DNA of 64,000 bases, taken from contig JAAVFD010000006.1 of NCBI GenBank assembly GCA_014800945.1, positions 25,508 to 89,507 on the forward strand, in the 5' to 3' direction. This document shows, in pieces, positions 1 through 36,679 of this stretch. This stretch comes from Barnesiella sp. (lineage in GTDB: Bacteria > Bacteroidota > Bacteroidia > Bacteroidales > Muribaculaceae). The notes under the pieces were generated by a model. The model did not search any database, was not told where the DNA came from, and saw nothing but the letters and a program-made list of their open reading frames with translations. The position numbers and the translations under genes were made by a program. Every line of letters begins with the position of its first letter. Within the stretch, counting starts at the first letter, position 1.

Positions 1-1188
1 CTCCGCTTCAAGATCTGGTGTGTATTGCCAGTTTGGGGTTGGATTGAATACCAGTGGAATACAGCCGTGTACAAGACATTCCATAATAGTTGAGGAGTAG
101 TGTGAAACAGCTACTTTTGTGCTGGCATAAACTTCTTCCAGAGGCGTGTTTGACACATCAAGAACATTTATCAGGGAATTGAGTTTTTCTTTGGTTTCGA
201 TATCTATTTTCGACTCCGGGTGCAGGCGGTACTGTATTGATAAATCCGGATTATTCACGGCTGTGTCAATAATCAGTTCGTAAAACCGGCGGAGGGTATT
301 GGTGGATGAGACGAAATAGGGCTCCTGAAGAAAGAATGTGATGCAGTTGTGATCTCCTGTTTTGAAAACGGGATACGGATATCCTCCTACAGAATATTCA
401 ATAAGCGGATTTCTGTGGTGCCATAAATCCTTAAACCGTTTGCCCCAGAGCACCATTTTTTTATATGGCATATTGGCAAATCCGGTATGGATGTGTGCCG
501 GCCAACCATGTTGAAACAGCACGGAATCTCCTCCTCTGGAATTACAGATAGAAGCCCAGATTTTGGCTTGAGTCTGACAACCGCACACGGTGTAAAATAC
601 CGGGGGCTCAATGCATTGGTCAAGACAAAGGATAGTATTTATATAAGAGAAGAAAAGAGGGAAATTCCTTTCTAAAAAATCGTTTCTGCAAACTCTTGTT
701 TTTGCATCAGGGAAGCGCATTACTGTAATGTTTTCAGGAATACCAAGGCTATCGAGTGCAATAATATTGTCTGAAATAAGGATTGCATCCCTCTTTTCTC
801 TTTTTATGAAGGGAATAAGATATGAAGCCATCCGTGTTATGTTTGCATAATATACAGGCTGCCCTTTGAAGGATTCAAGAATTTCAGCCCATTTTTGTAA
901 GTGTTGCGGTAAATTTCCGGTAAAGTTGAAATAATGTTTGTCTTTTTTATCAGGAATAGGAAGTTTTATAAGAATTTCAATTGCAGCGTCTTTTGACAGT
1001 CCGTTTTGTCGTAACAGGCAATAATCATCTCTGAGTCGGAAATGTAAGTAGTTAACATAACTTTCAAGAGTGGGAGCCAAATTAATGGATTCCATCTGAA
1101 TATATTTATTAATCAGATGGATCCATTTTCTGACTTTCATCTCAAGAACTGAAAAAAACTCATATAGATAATAATCTCCAGAGTTCAT
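1..1188 (-). CDS. Glycosyltransferase-like protein (capsule/sialyltransferase-like), C-terminus truncated by window edge; paralog of 7571..8872
   Basis: Open frame from ATG at 1188 through position 1 (absent from the ORF track because no stop is in the window); DNA 1-485 is about 98% identical to 7688-8172. Confidence 0.75.
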   Translation of the reverse strand, partial: MNSGDYYLYEFFSVLEMKVRKWIHLINKYIQMESINLAPTLESYVNYLHFRLRDDYCLLRQNGLSKDAAIEILIKLPIPDKKDKHYFNFTGNLPQHLQKWAEILESFKGQPVYYANITRMASYLIPFIKREKRDAILISDNIIALDSLGIPENITVMRFPDAKTRVCRNDFLERNFPLFFSYINTILCLDQCIEPPVFYTVCGCQTQAKIWASICNSRGGDSVLFQHGWPAHIHTGFANMPYKKMVLWGKRFKDLWHHRNPLIEYSVGGYPYPVFKTGDHNCITFFLQEPYFVSSTNTLRRFYELIIDTAVNNPDLSIQYRLHPESKIDIETKEKLNSLINVLDVSNTPLEEVYASTKVAVSHYSSTIMECLVHGCIPLVFNPTPNWQYTPDLEAE

Positions 1189-1193
1189 TCGTA

Positions 1194-4061
1194 TTATTTC
1201 TTTTTTGGTTGAATAGCGAATTTATATTGTATGTGAAGGAGTCCATATCGTGGAAGAACGTTGGTGTACACTTCGGTTTGAGCTTGGTCATTGACATTGT
1301 AAGTGACATTGTCAAGCTGATGTAGGAGATCAAATCCGTCCAGCATAATGAGCCATTTACCCCCTTTGACAGTGTATGTAATTCTCCCGTTCCAAACAGC
1401 CTTAGTTGAGTTGATGCTGCTTGCGGTATAGCCGTTTCTGCTATAAAAAGTCAAGTCTGTAGATATTCCGAACCGGCATGGGAGTGAAAACACCCCGTTA
1501 ATTCCATAATATGCATCTGTCGCAGAAAAGTTCTTGAACCCGGAGTCAGTGCCATGTGTATCGCGCCATTTTATGCCGCCCTTTAGTCCGATTTTCTGCT
1601 TGCCAATGCTCCAGTTGAAGTTTATAGTCTGGTTCAGAATAAGATTACTAACTATGTTTTTTGTGAAATCAGTTCCGGTCATAGCGAGCATACCTGTGCT
1701 GTTGCCATATCCTACCGTACTCCCTGAAGATATTGAAAACTGATTCCTTTTGCCGAATGTTTTGGAATATCTCTCGGTAAGATTTGCGTTCCAGTTCCCG
1801 CTAACATTATGCATCTGGTAAGTCCGTACACCGGTTTCAGGATTGTAACTGTATGAGTTAACCATTGCGTTTTCAATGACAGAGTATTTGAGTCCAATAT
1901 AGTTAGTCCATTTGTGTTTTGTCATTCCGAACAGTCTCCATTCAAGGCTGATATCGTTCGTTGCCGAATTCTTTAGATTAGGTGAGGCTGTGAATATATG
2001 AAGAGGGTCTCGGGTATTTACAACGTCAACGAGACGGTTAAGCTCAACCAATCTGTTGCTGCGGTTATAATTGAGTAGTAATTGATATTTTTGAGACTTG
2101 TTGAATGCGATTCTTGCTATCGGAACATTTATGTAGAGCGAATTTTTAGAAATATTCTGGTGAATGTCACCCTGCTTAAAATCAAGATGGCGCCAAGTAT
2201 AGTTAAAATCAGGCATTACTTGGATATCTATATCTCTCTTGTTGCTTAATGTAAAAGTGTGTATAAGATTGACAAAAAGGGATATCCTGTCATCAGTTTG
2301 TGTACTCAAATATGTTTGGTCCCTGTTAAGCGAAGACAGATAATTATCCGGTAGAATGCCAAAAACTCCTACATCTTCAAGTCGGTCGAGTTGGTATAGG
2401 TATGAATCCTTTGTTGCGCTTGTATGTGTCCATTGTGGCATAAAAGATAAATGACTACCGGGTTTGAAAGCATAAGAATAAGCTGTGTTCGCTGTAATTG
2501 ACCAGGAGTTGTCGGGATGATTTTTTGAAAACTGATAGTCTGTAGTATGACTTTCAGAAGTATGGTAATTTATATCAAAGCGATTAAATTCGCTATAGTG
2601 ATGTCTTCTATAGTCTCCGAATACTCGAAATAAGATAAGATCCGGTGTATGTGGAATTTTAAATGTTGATTCTAATCGCCCACCTGCACCGAAAGTGTTA
2701 CCACTGCTGAGGGATTGAGTAAGTGAAGTATAAACTGGGTTATCGACAAAAGAAGACAGTTCTCCACTGAAAATCTGCTCAAGTAATGTCTCACTTAGCT
2801 GTTGAGTAGCTGAGTTAAATGTCCCAGACAGTTTTTTTGTGAATTCGTTAAAATTACTGTAATTTATATGTGCATTCACGGCATAAAGTTGTTTACCGGG
2901 CCGCAGCAATAAAGTATGGTTTGATTTAACATTAAAATTGCGAGATATGGCATTTGTAAAAGCGGCGCCAAAAGTATTTCTATTAGTATGGAAATCTGTA
3001 GTATAAGTGTCGGATTCGTTAAAAGATCTGGTGTGATCAACTGTAGCATCTCCTTTTAATTCCCACTTGTTTCCTTCACCGCTAATGTTATAATCAATTC
3101 CCCCCATTTTGTTTCGGGTGTCTCCTGGAGTAGTAGAAGCTCTCCATGCGGTATTTTCACCTGGAGTTCGGTTATCATTAAGATTGTTGATGTTAGCTAT
3201 TAAAGCAATGCGTGAACGTGAGGTGTACCACATGCTGAACAATCGTGCCATATATCGTTCTGCTGTTCCTCCTCCAGCTTCTATATTGCCCATATATCCG
3301 TTCAGATACTCTTTTTTTAGATTGACATCCATCACATATTCGCTGTCCCCAAGGTCTTGTCCTGCAAATATGCTGGTTTCGCTCATTTTATCATATACCT
3401 TAACCTTGTTTACAGTATAAGCGCCCAAATTATTGAGCATAACGAGTTTATTACCCTTAAAAAAATCTTTTCCGTTAAGGAGTAGGCTTTCTACTTTCTT
3501 TCCGTTTACGAAAATTTCACCGTTATCATTCATCTCAACTCCCGGCATCTGTTTGATAAGCGCATCAAGCATAGACCCTTCCGGTAGTTTGAACGCATCG
3601 GCATTATATACAAGTGTATCGCCTGCCATATAAAATTTTACTTTCGTGGCAGTAACTGTTGCACCTTCAAGATTTTTGGATTTTTTATAAAATTCAAGGT
3701 CGGGAATCAGTAAAGATGTTTCTCTTGCCCCTATTTTATCAATATTAATAGTGGTATAAACGGTATCATACCCCTCAGCAAATGCTTTTAAGATATATGT
3801 ATCAGGATTTCTGGGAACATTGAAATTAATGGTGACATTTAGCTTCATATTGTCTCTGCTACCAGTCCATATACTGTTTGTCTTGGAATAGATAGTGTCA
3901 GTTTTACTTTCGGAAAGTAAAATGGCGTTGACTTTATCAATGGCATTACCGGTCCAGCCATCTATTACATTAGCTTTGACTGTAAATGCATTTGTATCCT
4001 GAGCAAGAGTTAATGAAATAGAAGAAGCAAAGAATAGCAAAAATGTTACGAGTATTTTCAT
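1194..4061 (-). CDS. Outer-membrane beta-barrel / TonB-dependent-receptor-like protein with signal peptide, N-terminal Ig/CarboxypepD_reg-like domain and plug
   Basis: 955 aa; signal peptide; plug-like GDTLVYNADAFKLPEGSMLDALIKQMPGVE; paralog of 8893..11760 (also 955 aa). Confidence 0.8.
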   Translation of the reverse strand: MKILVTFLLFFASSISLTLAQDTNAFTVKANVIDGWTGNAIDKVNAILLSESKTDTIYSKTNSIWTGSRDNMKLNVTINFNVPRNPDTYILKAFAEGYDTVYTTINIDKIGARETSLLIPDLEFYKKSKNLEGATVTATKVKFYMAGDTLVYNADAFKLPEGSMLDALIKQMPGVEMNDNGEIFVNGKKVESLLLNGKDFFKGNKLVMLNNLGAYTVNKVKVYDKMSETSIFAGQDLGDSEYVMDVNLKKEYLNGYMGNIEAGGGTAERYMARLFSMWYTSRSRIALIANINNLNDNRTPGENTAWRASTTPGDTRNKMGGIDYNISGEGNKWELKGDATVDHTRSFNESDTYTTDFHTNRNTFGAAFTNAISRNFNVKSNHTLLLRPGKQLYAVNAHINYSNFNEFTKKLSGTFNSATQQLSETLLEQIFSGELSSFVDNPVYTSLTQSLSSGNTFGAGGRLESTFKIPHTPDLILFRVFGDYRRHHYSEFNRFDINYHTSESHTTDYQFSKNHPDNSWSITANTAYSYAFKPGSHLSFMPQWTHTSATKDSYLYQLDRLEDVGVFGILPDNYLSSLNRDQTYLSTQTDDRISLFVNLIHTFTLSNKRDIDIQVMPDFNYTWRHLDFKQGDIHQNISKNSLYINVPIARIAFNKSQKYQLLLNYNRSNRLVELNRLVDVVNTRDPLHIFTASPNLKNSATNDISLEWRLFGMTKHKWTNYIGLKYSVIENAMVNSYSYNPETGVRTYQMHNVSGNWNANLTERYSKTFGKRNQFSISSGSTVGYGNSTGMLAMTGTDFTKNIVSNLILNQTINFNWSIGKQKIGLKGGIKWRDTHGTDSGFKNFSATDAYYGINGVFSLPCRFGISTDLTFYSRNGYTASSINSTKAVWNGRITYTVKGGKWLIMLDGFDLLHQLDNVTYNVNDQAQTEVYTNVLPRYGLLHIQYKFAIQPKKK

Positions 4062-4063
4062 GG

Positions 4064-5368
4064 TTAGTTTTGTTTCTGTTTTTGTTTGTTTAATAGCTGT
4101 GTTTTATATTTGTAATGAAGCGTGAGGTATTCATCAAGACTATTTTTCATTAGAGGACAAACTGATGGTTTTAACCCTTGCTCAAAGCGTTTGATTCTGT
4201 CGTATGGGCAACCACCATTGCATACAGGAAAAAGAATACAGTCATTACATTCCGTGTCTGTAAGTGCATCCGCCCTCATTTTGTAAGCAATATATTTACT
4301 TTCGTCCATAGTCTTATCACCAAGTTTCCCAAATACTCTATTGGGATTTCCAACATCGTTCCAGCAGCCGTATAATTCTCCTTCAGGACCTATTACATAT
4401 GTACCTACACTTCTTATAGCGCATTCAGCTCGTCTATTGCTGGGATAAAAGTTATTGAAGAAAATGTGATGTTCATTAAATAACTTTACAATAAAATCGT
4501 GCCTCTCTTGCTGATTGTATAAACACGATGTGCCTTTTTCGGTGGGATCTGATGTAAATGCAGGTGTGATACTTATTTTATGTTTATATTTTTCAGAAAA
4601 AAAATGATGAAGTTTAATATATTCAGACTGATTCTCTTTGTCAATATTAACTCTGATGTTAATTCTTGTTTTTGGTGCGTATTTTGTTAAAATTTCTATG
4701 GACTCCAATATTCTCTTGAAAGTGCCAACACCGTTTTTTAGTGCCCTACGTTTATTATGGGTTTCCTCCATGCCATCTAAGGTGATCTGAATACTATTTA
4801 TATGTAGTTTTTCAAATTTTTCAGCTTTCTGTTTAGTTATTAGATACCCATTAGAAATCATACCTGAATTATATTGTATTCCAAGTTCAAGCATTTTTTT
4901 TGTTAGTGATTCTATCCGGTCAAAAGCAAGAAGTGGTTCACCCCCAAACCATGTTATACTTAGTGTCTTTACGCTTGGCTTAGTTTTGATGAAAGATACA
5001 ATTCTATCTTCTACTTCATTGCTCATAGTCTTATTTGCGTGCTCAAATTCAAAGCAGTAAGGACAAGAAAAATTACAGGCAAGTGTGGGATTTATTGTAA
5101 GAGAAAGTCTGGAATTATCAAATCGGTTTAATAATGTAGTGAATTTAATTTTCTCAATTTCCTGTATATCGTCATTAGTAAGAGCTTTCATTCTTCTTAG
5201 ATTTTCTGATAACTCTTCATCTTCAATCGTTACATCTTTGCCAATAATAAATTCAGATAGTTGATGGTATAATTCACTGTCTAATTCAGCGAAAGAATTA
5301 GACAGTGAATTGTACAAGAGAAAATGATTCTCGTGGCAAAATAAATGGTTGAATTTAGACCACTTCAT
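4064..5368 (-). CDS. Radical SAM/SPASM peptide maturase
   Basis: CNFSCPYC (CX3CX2C) and C-terminal SPASM cysteines CNDCILFPVCNGGCPYDR...CPL; adjacent to Cys-rich peptide gene. Confidence 0.9.
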   Translation of the reverse strand: MKWSKFNHLFCHENHFLLYNSLSNSFAELDSELYHQLSEFIIGKDVTIEDEELSENLRRMKALTNDDIQEIEKIKFTTLLNRFDNSRLSLTINPTLACNFSCPYCFEFEHANKTMSNEVEDRIVSFIKTKPSVKTLSITWFGGEPLLAFDRIESLTKKMLELGIQYNSGMISNGYLITKQKAEKFEKLHINSIQITLDGMEETHNKRRALKNGVGTFKRILESIEILTKYAPKTRINIRVNIDKENQSEYIKLHHFFSEKYKHKISITPAFTSDPTEKGTSCLYNQQERHDFIVKLFNEHHIFFNNFYPSNRRAECAIRSVGTYVIGPEGELYGCWNDVGNPNRVFGKLGDKTMDESKYIAYKMRADALTDTECNDCILFPVCNGGCPYDRIKRFEQGLKPSVCPLMKNSLDEYLTLHYKYKTQLLNKQKQKQN

Positions 5369-5374
5369 AAAAGA

Positions 5375-5620
5375 TTAAATGTCAAAATTGTAAGCGCCAC
5401 AAGTTGAAAATTGTCCGCAATGAAATAATCCCTCACATCCTTCCGGACTTTCTTCACACATATCAGAATTGAAACTTTTACATTGATCTTTGATTCCTGA
5501 ATTTTCGGGGCATACGATGAATTTTCCACAATTGTCTCCACCCAAAATATGAGATTCTCCCTCAGGTGTTAATGTGATTTCGGGACGCGGTAGTTCAATA
5601 AATTTGAATTTTTTGTTCAT
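5375..5620 (-). CDS. Cys-rich RiPP precursor peptide (leader ending ILGG, 7-Cys core)
   Basis: 81 aa MNKKFKFIELPRPEITLTPEGESHILGG|DNCGKFIVCPENSG...; leader shared with 13158..13433, core divergent; next to rSAM maturase. Confidence 0.8.
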   Translation of the reverse strand: MNKKFKFIELPRPEITLTPEGESHILGGDNCGKFIVCPENSGIKDQCKSFNSDMCEESPEGCEGLFHCGQFSTCGAYNFDI

Positions 5621-5632
5621 GATAATTAAAGT

Positions 5633-6292
5633 TTAATTGTTAATAATAGCCTCGGCAAAAAGCCAGTCGGTTTCTGTGTCAATATCAATATATTTGCTAT
5701 CAGATGTTTCTATAATGCAAACCTTATTAGAGATTAGTTTTTTAGTTTTTTTTATTTGCTCTACAGTGGATGCATAAAAAGCACCTGATTCAATAAGGAT
5801 TCCGGAATAATTCTGGCGTAAGGGCTTGTTGTCAAGATTATACGATAACGGGTAACCGTCCTCATGCCAGATAAATCTTTTTATTCTGCGGCAGGATATA
5901 AACGAGTCAAAGGCTGCATCTTCCATTTTGTTGCATAAGTTCCTGAAATCTTCAGGCTTGGTGAAAGGTGATGTAGCCTGAGCAAGAATGAATTTGGTGG
6001 TAGAATCGGGATTTGTACTGCTGATAAACTCCATTATGACTTCTGTGACATTTGCCTTATCACTTGCAGATGCTTCACTTCTATGGAATATGTTGACTTG
6101 CGGATATATGGAGTTGATATAATCAACCGCTCTTTCATCATCTGTTGCAACCCAAATTTCATCGGCGGTATTGGAGGCAATAATGGCATTCAGTACCCAT
6201 GCAAGCAGTGGCTTGTCGCCAAGAATCCTCATGTTTTTGCCGGGGATTTCTTTGCTGCCCTTGCGTATCGGAATGAAATAAATGGTGCTCAT
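5633..6292 (-). CDS. Acylneuraminate (CMP-nonulosonate) cytidylyltransferase-like protein
   Basis: IPIRKGSKEIPGKNMRILGDKPLLAW motif; 219 aa. Confidence 0.85.
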   Translation of the reverse strand: MSTIYFIPIRKGSKEIPGKNMRILGDKPLLAWVLNAIIASNTADEIWVATDDERAVDYINSIYPQVNIFHRSEASASDKANVTEVIMEFISSTNPDSTTKFILAQATSPFTKPEDFRNLCNKMEDAAFDSFISCRRIKRFIWHEDGYPLSYNLDNKPLRQNYSGILIESGAFYASTVEQIKKTKKLISNKVCIIETSDSKYIDIDTETDWLFAEAIINN

Positions 6293-6437: not shown

Positions 6438-7478
6438 TCAGCCGTTTAGCTGCATTTTTGAGGATAACTCTTCCCGGTCCGGTGCATCTGATTCGAGTAT
6501 CTTGTCCCTAAGCCGTGTGCGCCGGTTGTAGAAATTTTTGATTTTGCTGTCGGTGAACAGGCAGATAGCTTTAGGTGAGAATCCGGCATACAGATATGTT
6601 AGGAAAGCAACGTCTTTATTGCTAAGCTTCGGCATCTGGGTTCTGATTCGGGTTATAATGCCGTTGTTGTAGGTATTTACCAGCTCTTCGAGTTCGACAA
6701 GTGATTTGGTGCTACGCAATTCGGTAATCTGCCGTTCAAGTTCTTTATGAACAGAAATTCTCACACTGTCGGTTTCCGCATCTTTTTTATTGAAGTATTC
6801 ATCGCAAAGGCGGTTGAATACCTCCCATCTGCCGGAATAGAGTTCTTTTATTTTTTTGTCAAGTTCTGCATTATTAGAGTTGCTACATTCAAGTTGCTGT
6901 CCAAGGTGTATTATTTCTTCACTTTTTTTCCTTCTTGCGTTTTTATATAAAAGTATGAGACCGAGTATAGAAAATCCGGTAATGATGCTTAGAATGACAA
7001 TGATATATTTTTGATGCGGGCTTGGAGGTGTCTCTTTCTTTAGGTATGGTGTTCTAAAGTATGTGGAGCCTGAGAATTTTCCTAAGGAAGTATTTAGTGA
7101 GCAAACATCGCTATCTTTGAAAAGCTGTCTATAGGGGAATCGTATTATACAGTGCCATGAGATAAGGCTGTCAGAAGAAAGATCCTCTATAGGGACATTC
7201 ATATTAAAAGGTTCAATTGGCTTGAATAATGAATCACAAAAGATACCTTCAGCCGAATAGACTTCAAAAGGTTTCCCTTTCGAGGAAATGTCTAATCTTA
7301 TTTCAAAATCCACCTGCGAGTCGTTTGATAGCCCGGAAAATTTGACAAAAAAAGTATCCGGCATTTCAGGTGCATATTTTGCAGTCCGCTCAATAATATT
7401 TTGGGCTAACGCAGAGCTACCATTATCCCAAAGTGTTATTGATAGTATGAGGAATATAATATGCTTAAAATAAGTCAT
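6438..7478 (-). CDS. Membrane-anchored sensor/regulator: signal peptide, periplasmic domain, TM helix, coiled coil, C-terminal HTH-like domain
   Basis: 346 aa; TM IIVILSIITGFSILGLILLY; C-terminal LSNKDVAFLTYLYAGFSPKAICLFTDSKIKNFYNRRTRLRDKI. Confidence 0.65.
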   Translation of the reverse strand: MTYFKHIIFLILSITLWDNGSSALAQNIIERTAKYAPEMPDTFFVKFSGLSNDSQVDFEIRLDISSKGKPFEVYSAEGIFCDSLFKPIEPFNMNVPIEDLSSDSLISWHCIIRFPYRQLFKDSDVCSLNTSLGKFSGSTYFRTPYLKKETPPSPHQKYIIVILSIITGFSILGLILLYKNARRKKSEEIIHLGQQLECSNSNNAELDKKIKELYSGRWEVFNRLCDEYFNKKDAETDSVRISVHKELERQITELRSTKSLVELEELVNTYNNGIITRIRTQMPKLSNKDVAFLTYLYAGFSPKAICLFTDSKIKNFYNRRTRLRDKILESDAPDREELSSKMQLNG

Positions 7479-7570: not shown

Positions 7571-8872
7571 TCATCCGGAAACCGGCTCATACCATTCGGC
7601 TATTTTATGTTCAGGGATATCGGTGTTGAGTGCAAAAGGGAGTTTGGTTCGGAATTCATGTTCGGATGTAGAAATATATCCGATTGACTCCGCTTCAAGA
7701 TCTGGGGTATATTGCCAGTTTGGGGTTGGATTGAATACCAGTGGAATACAGCCGTGCACAAGACATTCCATAATAGTTGAGGAGTAGTGTGAAACAGCTA
7801 CTTTTGTGCTGGCATATACTTCTTCCAGAGGCGTGTTTGACACATCAAGAACATTTATCAGGGAATTGAGTTTTTCTTTGGTTTCGATATCTATTTTCGA
7901 CTCCGGGTGCAGGCGGTACTGTATTGATAAATCCGGATTATTCCCGGCTGTGTTAATAATCAGTTCGTAAAACCGGCGGAGGGTATTGGTGGATGAGACG
8001 AAATAGGGTTCCTGAAGAAAGAATGTGATGCAGTTGTGATCTCCTGTTTTGAGAACGGGATACGGATATCCTCCTACAGAATATTCAATAAGCGGATTCC
8101 TGTGGTGCCATAAATCCTTAAACCGTTTGCCCCAGAGCACCATCTTTTTATATGGCATATTGGCAAATCCGGCATGGATATGTGCTGGCCATCCGTGCTG
8201 AAACAAAACCGATTCTCCGCCTCTGGAATTACATATTGAAGCCCATATTTTAGCCTGAGTCTGACAGCCACAAACACTGTAAAATACCGGTGGCTCCAAG
8301 CACCGGTCAAGAAGAGCTATGGTATTGGAAAATGAGTGAAATAAAGGGAAATTATATTCAAGAAAGTCATTTACGAAAAGTCTGCAACCGGAATCAACAA
8401 ATCTTACAATAGTAATGTTCCCAACGCTTTTTATAGATTCAATATTTGGGCGGCACTCTGTTACTAAAGTGGAGTTTCCGGTACGATTTTTTATGAATGG
8501 AAGGAGGTACTCAATCATTCGGGAAATGTGAGCGTAAAAAACAGGTTGTCCTTTTAAGGGACTTAAAATATCGTTCCATTTAGAGATAATATTCTGTTTT
8601 GTTAGCAGGGTATGAATCCCTTTAGGTGTGTTTTTAGGCAGAGGTAGTTTAACAAGAAGCGAAAGCGCTGACTGCGGGGACATACCGTCACACCGCAGTC
8701 GGCAGTATTCGTTTCGAATTGGATAGTAAGCATAGTTGACAAAGCTTTCTAACGGATTGCGAAGATCAGTATCACCTAAGTATGTGTGCTTCCCAAGACA
8801 GTCAGCCCATTCGGCTATTTTTTTCTCAAGCATCAAGAAAAACTCCGATATATAATAATCCGGTTGCACCAT
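7571..8872 (-). CDS. Glycosyltransferase-like protein (capsule/sialyltransferase-like)
   Basis: 433 aa; LFQHGWPAHIH, YRLHPES (HP motif), HYSSTIMECLVHGCIP (SS/T motif). Confidence 0.65.
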   Translation of the reverse strand: MVQPDYYISEFFLMLEKKIAEWADCLGKHTYLGDTDLRNPLESFVNYAYYPIRNEYCRLRCDGMSPQSALSLLVKLPLPKNTPKGIHTLLTKQNIISKWNDILSPLKGQPVFYAHISRMIEYLLPFIKNRTGNSTLVTECRPNIESIKSVGNITIVRFVDSGCRLFVNDFLEYNFPLFHSFSNTIALLDRCLEPPVFYSVCGCQTQAKIWASICNSRGGESVLFQHGWPAHIHAGFANMPYKKMVLWGKRFKDLWHHRNPLIEYSVGGYPYPVLKTGDHNCITFFLQEPYFVSSTNTLRRFYELIINTAGNNPDLSIQYRLHPESKIDIETKEKLNSLINVLDVSNTPLEEVYASTKVAVSHYSSTIMECLVHGCIPLVFNPTPNWQYTPDLEAESIGYISTSEHEFRTKLPFALNTDIPEHKIAEWYEPVSG

Positions 8873-8892
8873 CTTTTTGGAATAGATTTGTA

Positions 8893-21608: not shown

Positions 21609-24600
21609 TTATTCGGGCAGTTTGCCTACTTCGGGGTCAACTCCCCACTGCTGCTGAGCAAGGCGGCGGTAGTTGTTGTAGCGCCACTGAGCGTTAGCTT
21701 TAGCTGCTGCAAACAGTTCGGCTGCTTCAGCCGGATACTGTTTGAGAAGCGAAGCGTAACGAACCTCGCCTTTGAGGAAGTCTTCAAACTTGTCCCAATC
21801 GGGAGCTTTGCTGTCGAGGGTGAAGGGATTCTTGCCTTCGAGCTCTGCATCGGGATTGTAGCGCCAGAGTGACCAGTAACCGCAAGCAACTGCGTTAGCC
21901 TCTTCCTGCTGTGAGCGACCCATACCGGCTTTGATACCGTGGTTGATACAGGGAGCGTATGCAATGATGAGAGACGGTCCGTCGTATGCTTCTGCCTCAC
22001 GGATAGCCTTGAGGGTCTGAGCCTGATCGGCACCCATTGCAATCTGTGCTACATATACATAACCGTATGTAGAAGCGATGAGTCCGAGGTCTTTCTTGCG
22101 GATACGTTTACCGCTTGCAGCGAATTTGGCGATAGCACCGAGCGGTGTAGCTTTAGAAGCCTGACCGCCGGTATTTGAATACACCTCGGTGTCAACAACG
22201 AGAACGTTGATGTTTTTGCCGCATGCGAGCACGTGGTCAAGTCCGCCGAAGCCTATGTCATAGCTTGCACCGTCACCGGCGATAATCCAGTGCGAACGCT
22301 TAACGAGGTAGTGCTTGAGGTCAAGGATGGTCTTGCACTTGTCGCAATTGCATTTCTCAGCAAGAGGAAGGAGTTTGTCTGTGATTTCGCGTGTCTTGAC
22401 GGGATCGTTGGCATTGTCAAGCCATTCCTGAGCAAGAGCTTTGATTTCAGCAGAGCAGTCGGTGCATTCAGCAACTCCTTTGAGTGTTTCGGTGAGGCGG
22501 TTGCGGAGCTGTTCGTTAGCGATGAACATACCGAGACCGAATTCAGCGAAGTCCTCGAATAGTGAGTTACCCCATGCGGGACCATGACCCTTGTCGTTAA
22601 CGGTGTAAGGGGTTGAGGGTACTGAACCGGAGTAGATAGAAGAACAACCGGTTGCATTAGCCACCATTTCGTGGTCACCGAAGAGCTGAGAGATGAGTTT
22701 TACGTAAGGTGTTTCACCGCAGCCTGAGCAAGCGCCTGAGAACTCAAACAGAGGAGTTGCAAACTGGCTGTTCTTAACATTAGCCTTGGTATCAACGAGA
22801 TCCTGTTTGCTCTTAACAGAGTCAACGCAGTATTCCCAATCTTTCTGAACGTCAAGCTGAGTTTCGAGAGGTTTCATAACGAGAGCCTTCTCGCCTTTCT
22901 TTCCAGGGCAAACATCGGCACAGTTGCCGCAGCCGAGACAGTCAAGAACATCAACAGCCTGAATAAAGCGCATATCGGTGAATGTTTTGCCGATAGCGGG
23001 AATTGTACCGTTTTCTCCGAAGGGTGAAGCTGCAACCTCAGCCTTGTCAAGAACGAAGGGGCGTATGGCTGCGTGAGGACAAACGTATGCACACTTGTTA
23101 CACTGGATACAGTTGTCTGAAACCCATTCAGGAACGAATGTTGCAACACCGCGTTTTTCAGAGCGGGCAGTGCTCTGCTGCCATGTGCCGTCTGCGATAT
23201 CCTTGAAGTCAGATACTTTAAGGAGGTCACCGTCCTGAGCGTTGATAGGACGAACGAGTTTGCTGATGAAGGGATTTTCGTTCTTGTTAACCTCTTTCTC
23301 TTCAACAGTGAGGTTGCTCCAAGCGGGATCAATTTCCAGTTTGGAATACTCGTTACCGCGGTCAACAGCTGCATAGTTCTTGTCAACCACATCCTGACCT
23401 TTCTTGCCATAGCTCTTCACGATGAATTTCTTCATCTGCTCAACAGCGAGGTCAACAGGGATAACTTCGGTGATACGGAAGAATGCACTCTGAAGAATAG
23501 TGTTGGTGCGGTTGCCGAGACCTATTTCCTGAGCAATCTTGGTAGCGTCTATATAATATACGGTGATATTATGGTCTGCGAAGTATTTCTTGACTTTATT
23601 GGGGAGGTTCTTAGCGAGTTCTTCACCTTTCCAGATAGTGTTGAGAAGGAATGTGCCACCGTCACGGAGACCGCGGGTAACATCATAGAGGTGAAGGTAT
23701 GCCTGAACGTGACAAGCAACAAAGTTGGGGGTTGTTACGAGATAAGTAGAACGGATAGGCTCATCACCGAAACGGAGGTGAGAGCAGGTGAAACCACCGC
23801 TCTTCTTAGAGTCGTAAGCGAAATATGCCTGACAGTATTTATTGGTGTTGTCACCGATAATTTTGACAGAGTTTTTGTTTGCACCTACAGTACCGTCAGC
23901 ACCGAGACCATAGAATTTTGCTTCGAAAGTTTTATCGTTGAGCACAATCGGAGCAACTGGTGGCAGAGATGTGAAAGTAACATCATCAACAATGCCGAGG
24001 GTGAAATGATCTTTTGGCTCGGGAAGTGCGAGGTTTTCGAAAACAGAGATGATTTCTGCAGGAGTAGTGTCCTTTGATGCAAGACCGAAACGGCCGGCAA
24101 CAATAGCGGGAGCGTTTTCTACGCCCTTATATGCCTCGCAAACATCGAGGTAAAGGGGTTCGCCGGGAGCACCGGGCTCCTTGGTGCGGTCAAGAACAGC
24201 GATACGCTTTGTAGTGGCGGGAATAGCTGCCAGAAGGTGTTTTGCAGAGAAGGGACGATAGAGGTGAACTGCAACAAGACCTACTTTTTCGCCTTTGGCG
24301 CGGAGGTAGTCAACAGCTTCCTGAGCAGCCATGCAGCCTGAACCCATTGCAATGATTACGCGCTCTGCCTGAGGATCTCCGTAGTAATCGAAGAGATGGT
24401 ACTCTCTGCCGGTGATTTCGGAGATTTTGCCCATGTAGTATTCTACAATTTCGGGAACTGCGCTGTAGTAATTGTTGCAAGCTTCGCGGTGCTGGAAGAA
24501 TACGTCGCTGTTTTCAGCCATACCGCGTGCAACTGGTGCATCGGGGTTGAGTGCTCTTTCGCGGAATTCAGCAACAGCCTCACGGTCGAGGAGGGGAGCG

Positions 24601-25178
24601 AGGTCTTCCTGCTCAAGCATCTCGATTTTCTGAATTTCGTGTGATGTGCGGAATCCGTCAAAGAAGTTAACGAAAGGAACACGGCTCTTGATTGTTGCAA
24701 GGTGTGCAACAGCAGCAAGATCCATAACTTCCTGAACACTGCCTTCGGCAAGCATGGCGCAACCGGTTTGGCGTGTAGCCATAACGTCCTGATGGTCACC
24801 GAAAATGCTCAGCGCATGTGATGCGATTGTACGGGCACTCACATGGAATACGCAGGGAAGAAGCTCACCGGCAATCTTATACATATTTGGAATCATCAGG
24901 AGAAGACCCTGTGATGCTGTATAAGTTGTAGTGAGAGCACCCGCCTGAAGTGAACCGTGAACTGCACCTGCAGCACCGCCTTCACTTTGCATTTCCTGAA
25001 CGAGCACTGTCTCGCCAAAGATGTTTTTACGTCCTGCTGCAGCCCATTCGTCCACATATTCAGCCATTGTGGAAGAAGGGGTGATAGGATAGATTGCGGC
25101 AACCTCTGTGAACATATATGAAATATGTGCAGCAGCCTGATTACCGTCACAAGTTAAGAATTTTTTTTCCTTACTCAT
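21609..25178 (-). CDS. nifJ: Pyruvate:ferredoxin (flavodoxin) oxidoreductase
   Basis: 1189 aa; YPITPSSTMAE, CIQCNKCAYVCPH and CLGCGNCADVCPG ferredoxin motifs. Confidence 0.95.
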   Translation of the reverse strand: MSKEKKFLTCDGNQAAAHISYMFTEVAAIYPITPSSTMAEYVDEWAAAGRKNIFGETVLVQEMQSEGGAAGAVHGSLQAGALTTTYTASQGLLLMIPNMYKIAGELLPCVFHVSARTIASHALSIFGDHQDVMATRQTGCAMLAEGSVQEVMDLAAVAHLATIKSRVPFVNFFDGFRTSHEIQKIEMLEQEDLAPLLDREAVAEFRERALNPDAPVARGMAENSDVFFQHREACNNYYSAVPEIVEYYMGKISEITGREYHLFDYYGDPQAERVIIAMGSGCMAAQEAVDYLRAKGEKVGLVAVHLYRPFSAKHLLAAIPATTKRIAVLDRTKEPGAPGEPLYLDVCEAYKGVENAPAIVAGRFGLASKDTTPAEIISVFENLALPEPKDHFTLGIVDDVTFTSLPPVAPIVLNDKTFEAKFYGLGADGTVGANKNSVKIIGDNTNKYCQAYFAYDSKKSGGFTCSHLRFGDEPIRSTYLVTTPNFVACHVQAYLHLYDVTRGLRDGGTFLLNTIWKGEELAKNLPNKVKKYFADHNITVYYIDATKIAQEIGLGNRTNTILQSAFFRITEVIPVDLAVEQMKKFIVKSYGKKGQDVVDKNYAAVDRGNEYSKLEIDPAWSNLTVEEKEVNKNENPFISKLVRPINAQDGDLLKVSDFKDIADGTWQQSTARSEKRGVATFVPEWVSDNCIQCNKCAYVCPHAAIRPFVLDKAEVAASPFGENGTIPAIGKTFTDMRFIQAVDVLDCLGCGNCADVCPGKKGEKALVMKPLETQLDVQKDWEYCVDSVKSKQDLVDTKANVKNSQFATPLFEFSGACSGCGETPYVKLISQLFGDHEMVANATGCSSIYSGSVPSTPYTVNDKGHGPAWGNSLFEDFAEFGLGMFIANEQLRNRLTETLKGVAECTDCSAEIKALAQEWLDNANDPVKTREITDKLLPLAEKCNCDKCKTILDLKHYLVKRSHWIIAGDGASYDIGFGGLDHVLACGKNINVLVVDTEVYSNTGGQASKATPLGAIAKFAASGKRIRKKDLGLIASTYGYVYVAQIAMGADQAQTLKAIREAEAYDGPSLIIAYAPCINHGIKAGMGRSQQEEANAVACGYWSLWRYNPDAELEGKNPFTLDSKAPDWDKFEDFLKGEVRYASLLKQYPAEAAELFAAAKANAQWRYNNYRRLAQQQWGVDPEVGKLPE

Positions 25179-25462
25179 AAAAATGTAATCTAATTAGATT
25201 GGTATAGAATTTTTGCGAAGTTACGAATTTATCTGAATAGAAATATTAATAAGGAGGGATATTTTTTTAGAGTGGAACCTAAATATGTTGTAAAGCATGA
25301 TTTGTGTGAAGTTGAGTGTTTGTCACAGACTATCATGAGAGCGGGTAAAAGCCTCTTGAGTTATGGGTGGAAAACGAAAATCGCGCTCACGAATGTTAAA
25401 TTATACTAAAATAAAGTCTGAAGTGTTTGCGCTTTTCCAAAATCTTTCTACTTTTGTGTGTG

Positions 25463-34546: not shown

Positions 34547-36679
34547 TTATTTCACTCTTATCTTCACGGCTTTGCCACCGGGAATGCGGACGATGTAGAT
34601 GCCGGGGCGCAGACCGCTTGCGGCTACTCTCCTGCCATTGAGGTCAAACACCTCGCTACCCTCCGGAGCGATAATATTGCCACCCTCAACTCTCACCAAT
34701 CTCTCTCCTTCACTATCAACCTCATCAATGCCGGCTGATTTGGCTTTAACTGTCACAGTGCAGGAAGCGGTGAGACCATTAGCAGTGGTAGCGGTTATGG
34801 TAGCAGTGCCGGCCTTGAGAGCTGTAACCAAACCGGTTGTATCCACGCTCGCAACAGCTTCATCCGAGCTGCTCCATGTCACGCTCTTCTCTGTCACTTC
34901 ATCAGGTGAAATTGTGGCAGTAAGTTGCAATGTCTGTGCCTCTACAATCTCTGAAGACTCAATATTGAGCTTCAAACCGGTTGCCTCTATCGTTTTAGCT
35001 ACCACAGTCACAGTGCAGCTTGCGGTCAGACCGTTAGATGTAACAGCAACTATAACTGCATTCCCTTCCTTTATACCTAAGATTTTGCCGCTTGCATCCA
35101 CAGTAGCCACTTTAGAGTCTGTGGATATCCATGCAATATCTTTGTCATTCAAGTTTTCAGGGGTAGAAAGCATTGAAAGTTGAAGTAATTCATTCTCAAG
35201 AATCTCCGCCTTATTAATATTGAGTATAAATTCAGTTGTTGTTGAATTTCCAGCTACTACAGAAATAGCACTGCTTGCTTTAACACCATTATATGTGGCT
35301 GTAATAATAGCAGCCCCCTCTTTAATAGCTGTCACCAGTCCATCGTTATTAACAATCGCCACTTCCGAATCAGAAGTGCTCCAAGTAACTGTCTCGTTAG
35401 TGGCGTTTTCGGGAGTTGTGATTAGATTGAGTTTTGCTGTAGTACCTTTGTTTAGTTCAAACTCAATTTTTGCATCAACTTCACTAATCCCTATAATTTT
35501 ATTAAAACTACTCCATACAGCGGCTGTTTTGTAAGCTTTTATATTATCATCCGGAACACGTAGTATAGCGTTTTTATATACATCTCCGGGGAAATTTGGT
35601 GGACTCACTTGAGGGGGATTGTATGCAAAAACAGTAATGTCCTTAATTGATAGACAGTTTTTGAAAGCGTCGATACCTATTGTTGTTACCGAGTTGCCTA
35701 TGCTGATTGAATTGAGTCTTGTGCAACCCTCATAAGCGCCTGCGGCAATGCTTAATACTGAAATCGGAATATTAATGGATGTTAGTCCTTTACAGCCGCA
35801 GAAAGCGTACTGACCGATTTCAGTGACCGAATTGGGGATAATGATGGATGTTAGTCCTTTACAGCCGCAGAAAGCGTACTGACCGATTTCAGTGACCGAA
35901 TTGGGGATAATGATGGATGTCAGTCCGGAACAGCCATAGAAAGCATGATAACCGATTTCAGTGACCGAATTACCGATGGTGACTGATTTCAGAGCCGTTA
36001 TATCTCTAAAAGGAGTATAGTCACTACCATTCGAAAGATTACGTCCCAAGTATAAAGTTTCAAGTGGGCAATCGGAGAACAAACCTTTTGTAACATTATT
36101 ATTGCCTACCCACAGAGTTTCAGTATTATCTTCAATCGTAAGTTCTTTTATTCCAGAGCAGCCGTTGAAAGCGCCATCTCCTATTTCAGTGACGGAATTG
36201 GGTATGGTGATGGATGTCAGTCCGGAGCAGTCCCTGAAAGCTGAAATACCGATTTCAGTGACCGAATTGGGTATGGTGATGGATGTCAGAGATGAGCAGC
36301 CATAGAAAGTTGACCAACCGATTTCAGTGACAGAATTGGGGATGGTGACTGATGTCAATCCGGAGCAGCCCCAGAAAGCTGACGTACCTATTTCAGTGAC
36401 AGAATTGGGTATGGTGACTGATGTCAGATCTGAGCAGCCGTAGAAAGCTAGCTCACCAATTGAGGTGACCTTGTAGCTTTTGCCTGAATCATCAACGGCG
36501 ACTTCAGGAATTACCACTGCCCCGGTAATTGAAGGGTCTGCTCTAACATTACAGGTACTTCCGCTGCTATAGTAATTTAGCGTCTGCCCTTGATAGGTGT
36601 AGGTGAATGAGTCAGCTAATGCCGTGATGGGCAACATGACCGCGAGAGCAATTAGGATTAAGAGTAGCTTTTGCTTCAT
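34547..36679 (-). CDS. BspA-like LRR surface protein with Ig-like (Big_2) repeats and C-terminal secretion-signal-like domain
   Basis: IPNSVTEIGxxAFxGCxGLTSI repeats, three VTWSSSDxxVAxVDxxGLVTALKxGTATITATTANG repeats, GIYIVRIPGGKAVKIRVK end. Confidence 0.88.
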   Translation of the reverse strand: MKQKLLLILIALAVMLPITALADSFTYTYQGQTLNYYSSGSTCNVRADPSITGAVVIPEVAVDDSGKSYKVTSIGELAFYGCSDLTSVTIPNSVTEIGTSAFWGCSGLTSVTIPNSVTEIGWSTFYGCSSLTSITIPNSVTEIGISAFRDCSGLTSITIPNSVTEIGDGAFNGCSGIKELTIEDNTETLWVGNNNVTKGLFSDCPLETLYLGRNLSNGSDYTPFRDITALKSVTIGNSVTEIGYHAFYGCSGLTSIIIPNSVTEIGQYAFCGCKGLTSIIIPNSVTEIGQYAFCGCKGLTSINIPISVLSIAAGAYEGCTRLNSISIGNSVTTIGIDAFKNCLSIKDITVFAYNPPQVSPPNFPGDVYKNAILRVPDDNIKAYKTAAVWSSFNKIIGISEVDAKIEFELNKGTTAKLNLITTPENATNETVTWSTSDSEVAIVNNDGLVTAIKEGAAIITATYNGVKASSAISVVAGNSTTTEFILNINKAEILENELLQLSMLSTPENLNDKDIAWISTDSKVATVDASGKILGIKEGNAVIVAVTSNGLTASCTVTVVAKTIEATGLKLNIESSEIVEAQTLQLTATISPDEVTEKSVTWSSSDEAVASVDTTGLVTALKAGTATITATTANGLTASCTVTVKAKSAGIDEVDSEGERLVRVEGGNIIAPEGSEVFDLNGRRVAASGLRPGIYIVRIPGGKAVKIRVK

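Follow-up and report, generated by a model that had tools for sequence, protein, structure and literature searches.

Comparison with described peptide-modification systems

Previous work on Bacteroidales described radical SAM (rSAM) RiPP clusters with GG precursors and C39 exporters, some of them with glycosyltransferases (PMC10352776); the main text of that study makes no mention of cytidylyltransferases, sialic acid, or B. fluxus. Here, we analyzed a stretch of 64,000 nucleotides from a Barnesiella sp. contig (the window), which carries two related cassettes that combine a Cys-rich precursor peptide and an rSAM/SPASM maturase with genes for a CMP-sugar synthetase (CTP) and a GT-B glycosyltransferase (GT). 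Sequence searches assigned the window to Paramuribaculum, a genus of the Muribaculaceae, with P. intestinale DSM 100749 among the matches from that genus. Among named systems, the GG-samocins of Bacteroidales (TIGR04148 rSAM, TIGR04149 precursor) resemble these cassettes in that a GG-leader, Cys-bearing precursor sits beside an rSAM maturase. However, precursor A gave no match to TIGR04149, TIGR04148 was absent from the 25 best rSAM matches, and the window cassettes have neither a pseudo-rSAM nor a LanC-like gene, their rSAM being of a different family. The ranthipeptide/SCIFF maturase CteB is the closest solved structure to the rSAM, but the present system differs in its precursor, in its gram-negative C39 export, and in having a sugar module, and its thioether is predicted. 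Precursor A also differs from Cys-every-fifth CefB (NF038107) in that it does not have the Cys-every-fifth repeat.

With regard to the sugar module, glycocins of the sublancin type are likewise glycosylated, Cys-rich bacterial peptides, glycosylation of the present peptide being predicted. Glycocins are made by SunS-type GT2 enzymes, which have a GT-A fold and use UDP-sugars, and their synthesis involves no rSAM; in contrast, the enzyme encoded here is a GT-B protein outside GT2 (GT-A) and is linked to a CMP-sugar synthetase. Its top fold match is the bacterial polysialyltransferase 5wcn, and the HP and S motif region is present; nevertheless, the two have no detectable sequence similarity, and the 5wcn family uses a glycan acceptor. 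A search of the searchable literature, outside which most subscription journals lie, found no published example of a sialylated RiPP or of rSAM cross-linking combined with a sialic-acid-type sugar.

Our main reading of the locus, drawn from gene content, alignments, and predicted folds and given a probability of roughly 55%, is that it encodes a Cys-rich, rSAM-modified, GG-leader RiPP that probably carries a nonulosonic acid donated from its CMP-activated form. In this scheme, the conserved leader would bind the N-terminal region of the neighboring rSAM/SPASM enzyme, which would cross-link the core Cys residues, most likely as thioethers; the NeuA-like cytidylyltransferase would form a CMP-nonulosonic acid (a sialic-acid-type sugar), which the GT-B enzyme would use as the donor to modify the peptide. 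The C39 peptidase-ABC transporter would then cleave after the GG and export the product, and the outer-membrane barrel and the membrane-bound regulator would pass or sense it.

Organization of the two cassettes

All cassette genes within the window lie on the reverse strand, and a second, diverged gene set (cassette B, 7571–15276) is located just upstream of cassette A. In the order of transcription, the genes encode putative membrane-bound regulator B (14251–15276, the counterpart of regulator A), CTP_B (13417–14145, with a likely ATG start at 14103 or 14112), precursor peptide B (13158–13433), rSAM/SPASM peptide maturase B (11822–13168), outer-membrane plugged barrel B (8893–11760), and the sialyltransferase-like glycosyltransferase of cassette B, GT (7571–8872). 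These are followed by putative membrane-bound regulator A (6438–7478), CTP_A (5633–6292), precursor peptide A (5375–5620), maturase A (4064–5368), barrel A (1194–4061), the sialyltransferase-like GT-B enzyme of cassette A, GT-prime (1–1188), and the C39-ABC exporter. GT-prime is cut by the window edge; the whole gene spans 10380–11696 of locus L039. The exporter, which ends the operon, lies immediately beyond the left window edge (contig C6, about 23206–25400), in a region where the assembly has ambiguous bases. It is the sole C39 protein detected in the genome, which is 82% complete, and C39 exporters are also present in the homologous loci L044, L065, and L047. The stop codon of CTP_A is separated from the start of precursor A by 12 nt, precursor A ends 6 nt before rSAM A, and barrel A begins 2 nt after rSAM A. 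From this spacing, the cassette A genes are in all likelihood read as one transcript.

Regulator A has a signal/periplasmic N-terminus, a TM segment, and an HTH-like C-terminus, as predicted from its sequence, and gave no Pfam match. Neither did the outer-membrane barrel protein, whose model shows a TonB-dependent-receptor fold with an N-terminal Ig-like domain; the model is moderately confident (pLDDT 66) and was used for the fold class alone, that is, a plugged TonB-dependent-type barrel. The presence of a barrel of this type and a membrane-bound regulator in each cassette suggests that the peptide is secreted and then either taken up or sensed; it may act as a bacteriocin-like agent, a pheromone, or a metallophore. 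Two other genes in the window were noted. Beside the cluster, and probably unrelated to it, is a gene for a Peptidase C1-like (bleomycin-hydrolase type) protein with a signal peptide (15879–17276), and positions 34547–36679 encode a BspA-type leucine-rich repeat surface protein with Ig-like domains.

The precursor has a conserved leader and a Cys framework

Precursor A is an 81-aa ORF with an ATG start. Its 28-aa leader (MNKKFKFIELPRPEITLTPEGESHILGG) ends in ILGG at position 28, and the 53-residue core that follows contains seven Cys and is acidic, as an earlier, sequence-only reading of this DNA had described it; we counted nine D/E versus three K/R. Precursor B consists of a 28-aa leader and a 63-aa core with eight Cys. 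That reading had also called the two leaders nearly colinear, and our alignment agrees: 19 of 28 positions are identical (68%), and the alignment score of 98 lies far beyond those of all 2000 shuffles (mean 17, sd 3.6, maximum 40), so the match is not due to chance. When homologous leaders were brought in, the invariant columns across six precursors fell mainly in the leader, and in most precursor pairs the leader was more conserved than the core. Leaders of C39 substrates are expected to follow the pattern L-12, E-8, L-7, I-4, G-2, and A-1. The B. fluxus leader has the full pattern; leader A retains L at −12, I at −4, and the GG, and the L at −7 is absent.

The cores required a revision of the earlier view, which held that cores A and B align in Cys and Gly content only and that a constant leader precedes a variable core. 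The first point is right in part, as the similarity of that pair is weak (17 of 50 identical, z 3.8, falling to z 2.8 with Cys fixed), but it does not extend to homologous cores, since core A aligns with that of B. fluxus (z 5.4; z 3.6 with Cys fixed) and core B with that of Paramuribaculum SC0335 (z 7.9; z 6.0 with Cys fixed). The second stands for the leader, but the order of Cys is kept in the core. Core position 3 holds the first Cys in seven of seven homologous cores, and a gap of five to six residues separates it from the second. Given the Cys-fixed alignments and this shared placement, the core, judged by alignment, combines a preserved Cys framework with loops that vary, and is not freely variable. 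The alignment of homologous cores showed no strictly conserved Ser or Thr that would make an obvious sugar acceptor, which counts against decoration of the peptide.

A conserved Cys order is also what small Cys-rich proteins display, and it would suit an unmodified disulfide- or metal-binding structural protein whose neighbors are coincidental. The opposite pattern of conservation, a constant core behind a variable leader, was looked for in the homologues and did not appear; the leader is the better conserved part in most pairs, and the operon with its rSAM maturase and C39 exporter is co-conserved across families. We consider such a structural protein highly improbable and, in view of what the operon contains and how well the leader is conserved, rejected it. 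Since a conserved leader, an adjacent rSAM/SPASM maturase, and a C39 exporter occur in one operon, the RiPP signature proposed earlier is upheld, and precursor A is, as far as sequence and gene context can tell, almost certainly a RiPP precursor.

An identical copy of the 81-aa precursor A occurs on another contig of the same assembly (G000, contig C18, locus L023). This copy of cassette A differs by 57 nt over 6.1 kb of coding sequence, with no difference in the precursor, and is flanked by GT fragments; it may represent a further (third) cassette or a strain variant.

The maturase falls in an unnamed rSAM/SPASM subfamily

Maturase A contains the CxxxCxxC motif and the SPASM cysteines, and an rSAM neighbor of the precursor is kept in homologous loci. 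The best-scoring named families are Clo7bot TIGR04334 (250 bits against a cut-off of 600), TIGR04463 (215 against 525), and NF038107 (214 against 600). As all of these scores are far below the cut-offs, the enzyme is assigned by profile search to an unnamed subfamily. The closest solved relative is CteB (5wgg, E 2e-29), and the alignment, which starts at profile position 25 and so takes in some of the N-terminal region, extends over the whole SPASM domain. This relationship makes thioether formation plausible, and rSAM A is likely to cross-link Cys residues of the core in this way. As to ranthipeptide or sactipeptide character, defined by an rSAM-made thioether that links Cys to a beta, gamma, or alpha carbon, the locus shows a Cys-rich core and a CteB-like maturase.

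The sugar module resembles enzymes that handle CMP-nonulosonic acids

The earlier reading made no mention of the CMP-sugar synthetase and the sialyltransferase-like GT, although both are part of the cassette. CTP_A and CTP_B are 72% identical. Both are predicted to have the CTP_transf_3 fold and keep the PxRxGSKxxPxKN and DID motifs, as expected of NeuA/PseF-type cytidylyltransferases (PF02348). In profile searches, the best solved match was the CMP-NeuNAc synthetase 1qwj (E 5e-40), with KdsB far behind (E 6e-10); the score against the PseF model was 79 bits, under its cut-off of 205.7. By homology, the product is presumably a CMP-nonulosonic acid.

The GT family search gave no usable match, the one weak hit being the BFO_1060 glycosyltransferase (19/200 bits), and comparison with solved sialyltransferases gave no sequence-level match. 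The predicted model (pLDDT 85) has a GT-B fold, and its top match in the PDB was the CDP-bound polysialyltransferase 5wcn (E 2.9e-10); the match is moderate (TM 0.43–0.48), and UDP-GlcNAc epimerases and further GT-B enzymes score almost as well. Eight homologues, a remote one included, retain His322-Pro323-Glu324, Ser364, and Glu369 without exception.

The CTP superfamily also includes KdsB, which leaves room for a RiPP whose peptide receives Kdo, some other CMP-activated sugar, or a non-sugar group from CTP and GT. We regard this as decidedly unlikely: the NeuA match is better than that of KdsB by about 30 orders of magnitude in E-value, and the top fold match of the GT is a polysialyltransferase.

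Glycosyltransferase and regulator genes are more alike between cassettes in their 3′ parts

At the nucleotide level, GT and GT-prime share about 50% identity in the first 500 nt and 97–99% in the last 600. The two GT genes of P. intestinale follow the same pattern (about 48%, then 96–99%), so that near-identical 3′ and divergent 5′ halves are seen in two species (window 1–1188 and 7571–8872; loci L043 and L065). On the protein model, the homogenized part comprises the Rossmann domain at the C-terminus, which is the donor domain, and the last stretch of the N-terminal Rossmann domain. The regulators follow a like pattern, with nucleotide identities between A and B of 53–64% in the N-part and 79–91% in the C-part. 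The simplest reading that these identities suggest is gene conversion of the shared GT and regulator parts. The parts that would face the peptide, namely the N-terminal half of GT and the sensor, diverge together with the core. We place at even odds the fuller reading, in which the RiPP carries both rSAM Cys cross-links and a nonulosonic-acid sugar added by the CTP and GT-B enzyme of its cassette, and in which the peptide, the sensor, and the acceptor half of GT diversify from one paralogous cassette to the next while recombination holds the donor half uniform.

The sugar genes travel with the precursor

Of 399 Muribaculaceae genomes, four had the precursor, and the GT family was found in exactly these four. 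Among 395 Bacteroidales genomes, the sole other GT match was in G473, where it adjoins genes for a CTP transferase, NeuB, and a HAD phosphatase; this NeuB is 64% identical to that of the window's genome. Of 79 loci with a related rSAM, five (L043, L044, L045, L047, and L065) contain CTP or GT, all with this precursor type. Contig ends truncate L043 and L045, in each of which one of the two genes is seen; the other three loci have both, so CTP and GT occur together in these 79 loci wherever the contig covers both positions. The gene order differs in B. fluxus (precursor, rSAM, barrel, GT, CTP, exporter). When the presence of CTP/GT was placed on the rSAM tree, two changes were needed, which points to at least one additional joint gain or loss of the two genes. 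We dropped the NeuB of cassette-bearing genomes as support for the sugar, as NeuB occurs in 67 of 100 relatives and is permissive at most.

These data bear on whether CTP and GT act on the peptide or, with the precursor still an rSAM-modified GG-leader RiPP, on a cell-surface or lipid-linked glycan, for instance one that protects the producer from the product or a receptor glycan. GT-B sialyl-type enzymes mostly use glycan acceptors, a remote GT homologue lies inside a nonulosonate operon, and the B. fluxus GT weakly matches Glyphos_transf, all of which would fit a glycan target. On the other hand, GT is found in just those four of 399 family genomes that have the precursor, CTP lies 12 nt from the precursor in cassette A, and the cassettes carry separate GT copies whose N-terminal halves diverge. 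We therefore judge a glycan target unlikely, and decoration of the peptide itself with nonulosonic acid, the peptide being the presumed acceptor, to have about an even chance.

If the main reading is correct, commensal gut Bacteroidales produce peptides with sialic-acid-like sugars, a class displayed by hosts and read by immune lectins; nonulosonic acid would join the known RiPP modifications, and a peptide-directed GT would have fold kinship to polysialyltransferases. The reading is testable with a small gene set from Paramuribaculum intestinale DSM 100749 and Bacteroides fluxus YIT 12057.

Related loci showed three further arrangements. Upstream of CTP, relatives encode a small secreted protein of about 125–135 aa (L044, 1044–1454; L065, 2223–2609; L026, 4012–4389), which is absent from the window's cassettes and of which the one tested gave no Pfam match. 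P. intestinale has an extra barrel-GT pair directly before the exporter (L065, 9513–13711) without its own precursor, rSAM, or CTP. Lastly, locus L145 (relative G005, contig C51) has a run of genes, all on one strand, for a homologous CTP, a fusion of GT and methyltransferase, a LanC-like protein, a TIGR04149 precursor, and a TIGR04148 rSAM, and a GT2 gene also neighbors the CTP and the fusion; the sugar module may thus serve two RiPP families.
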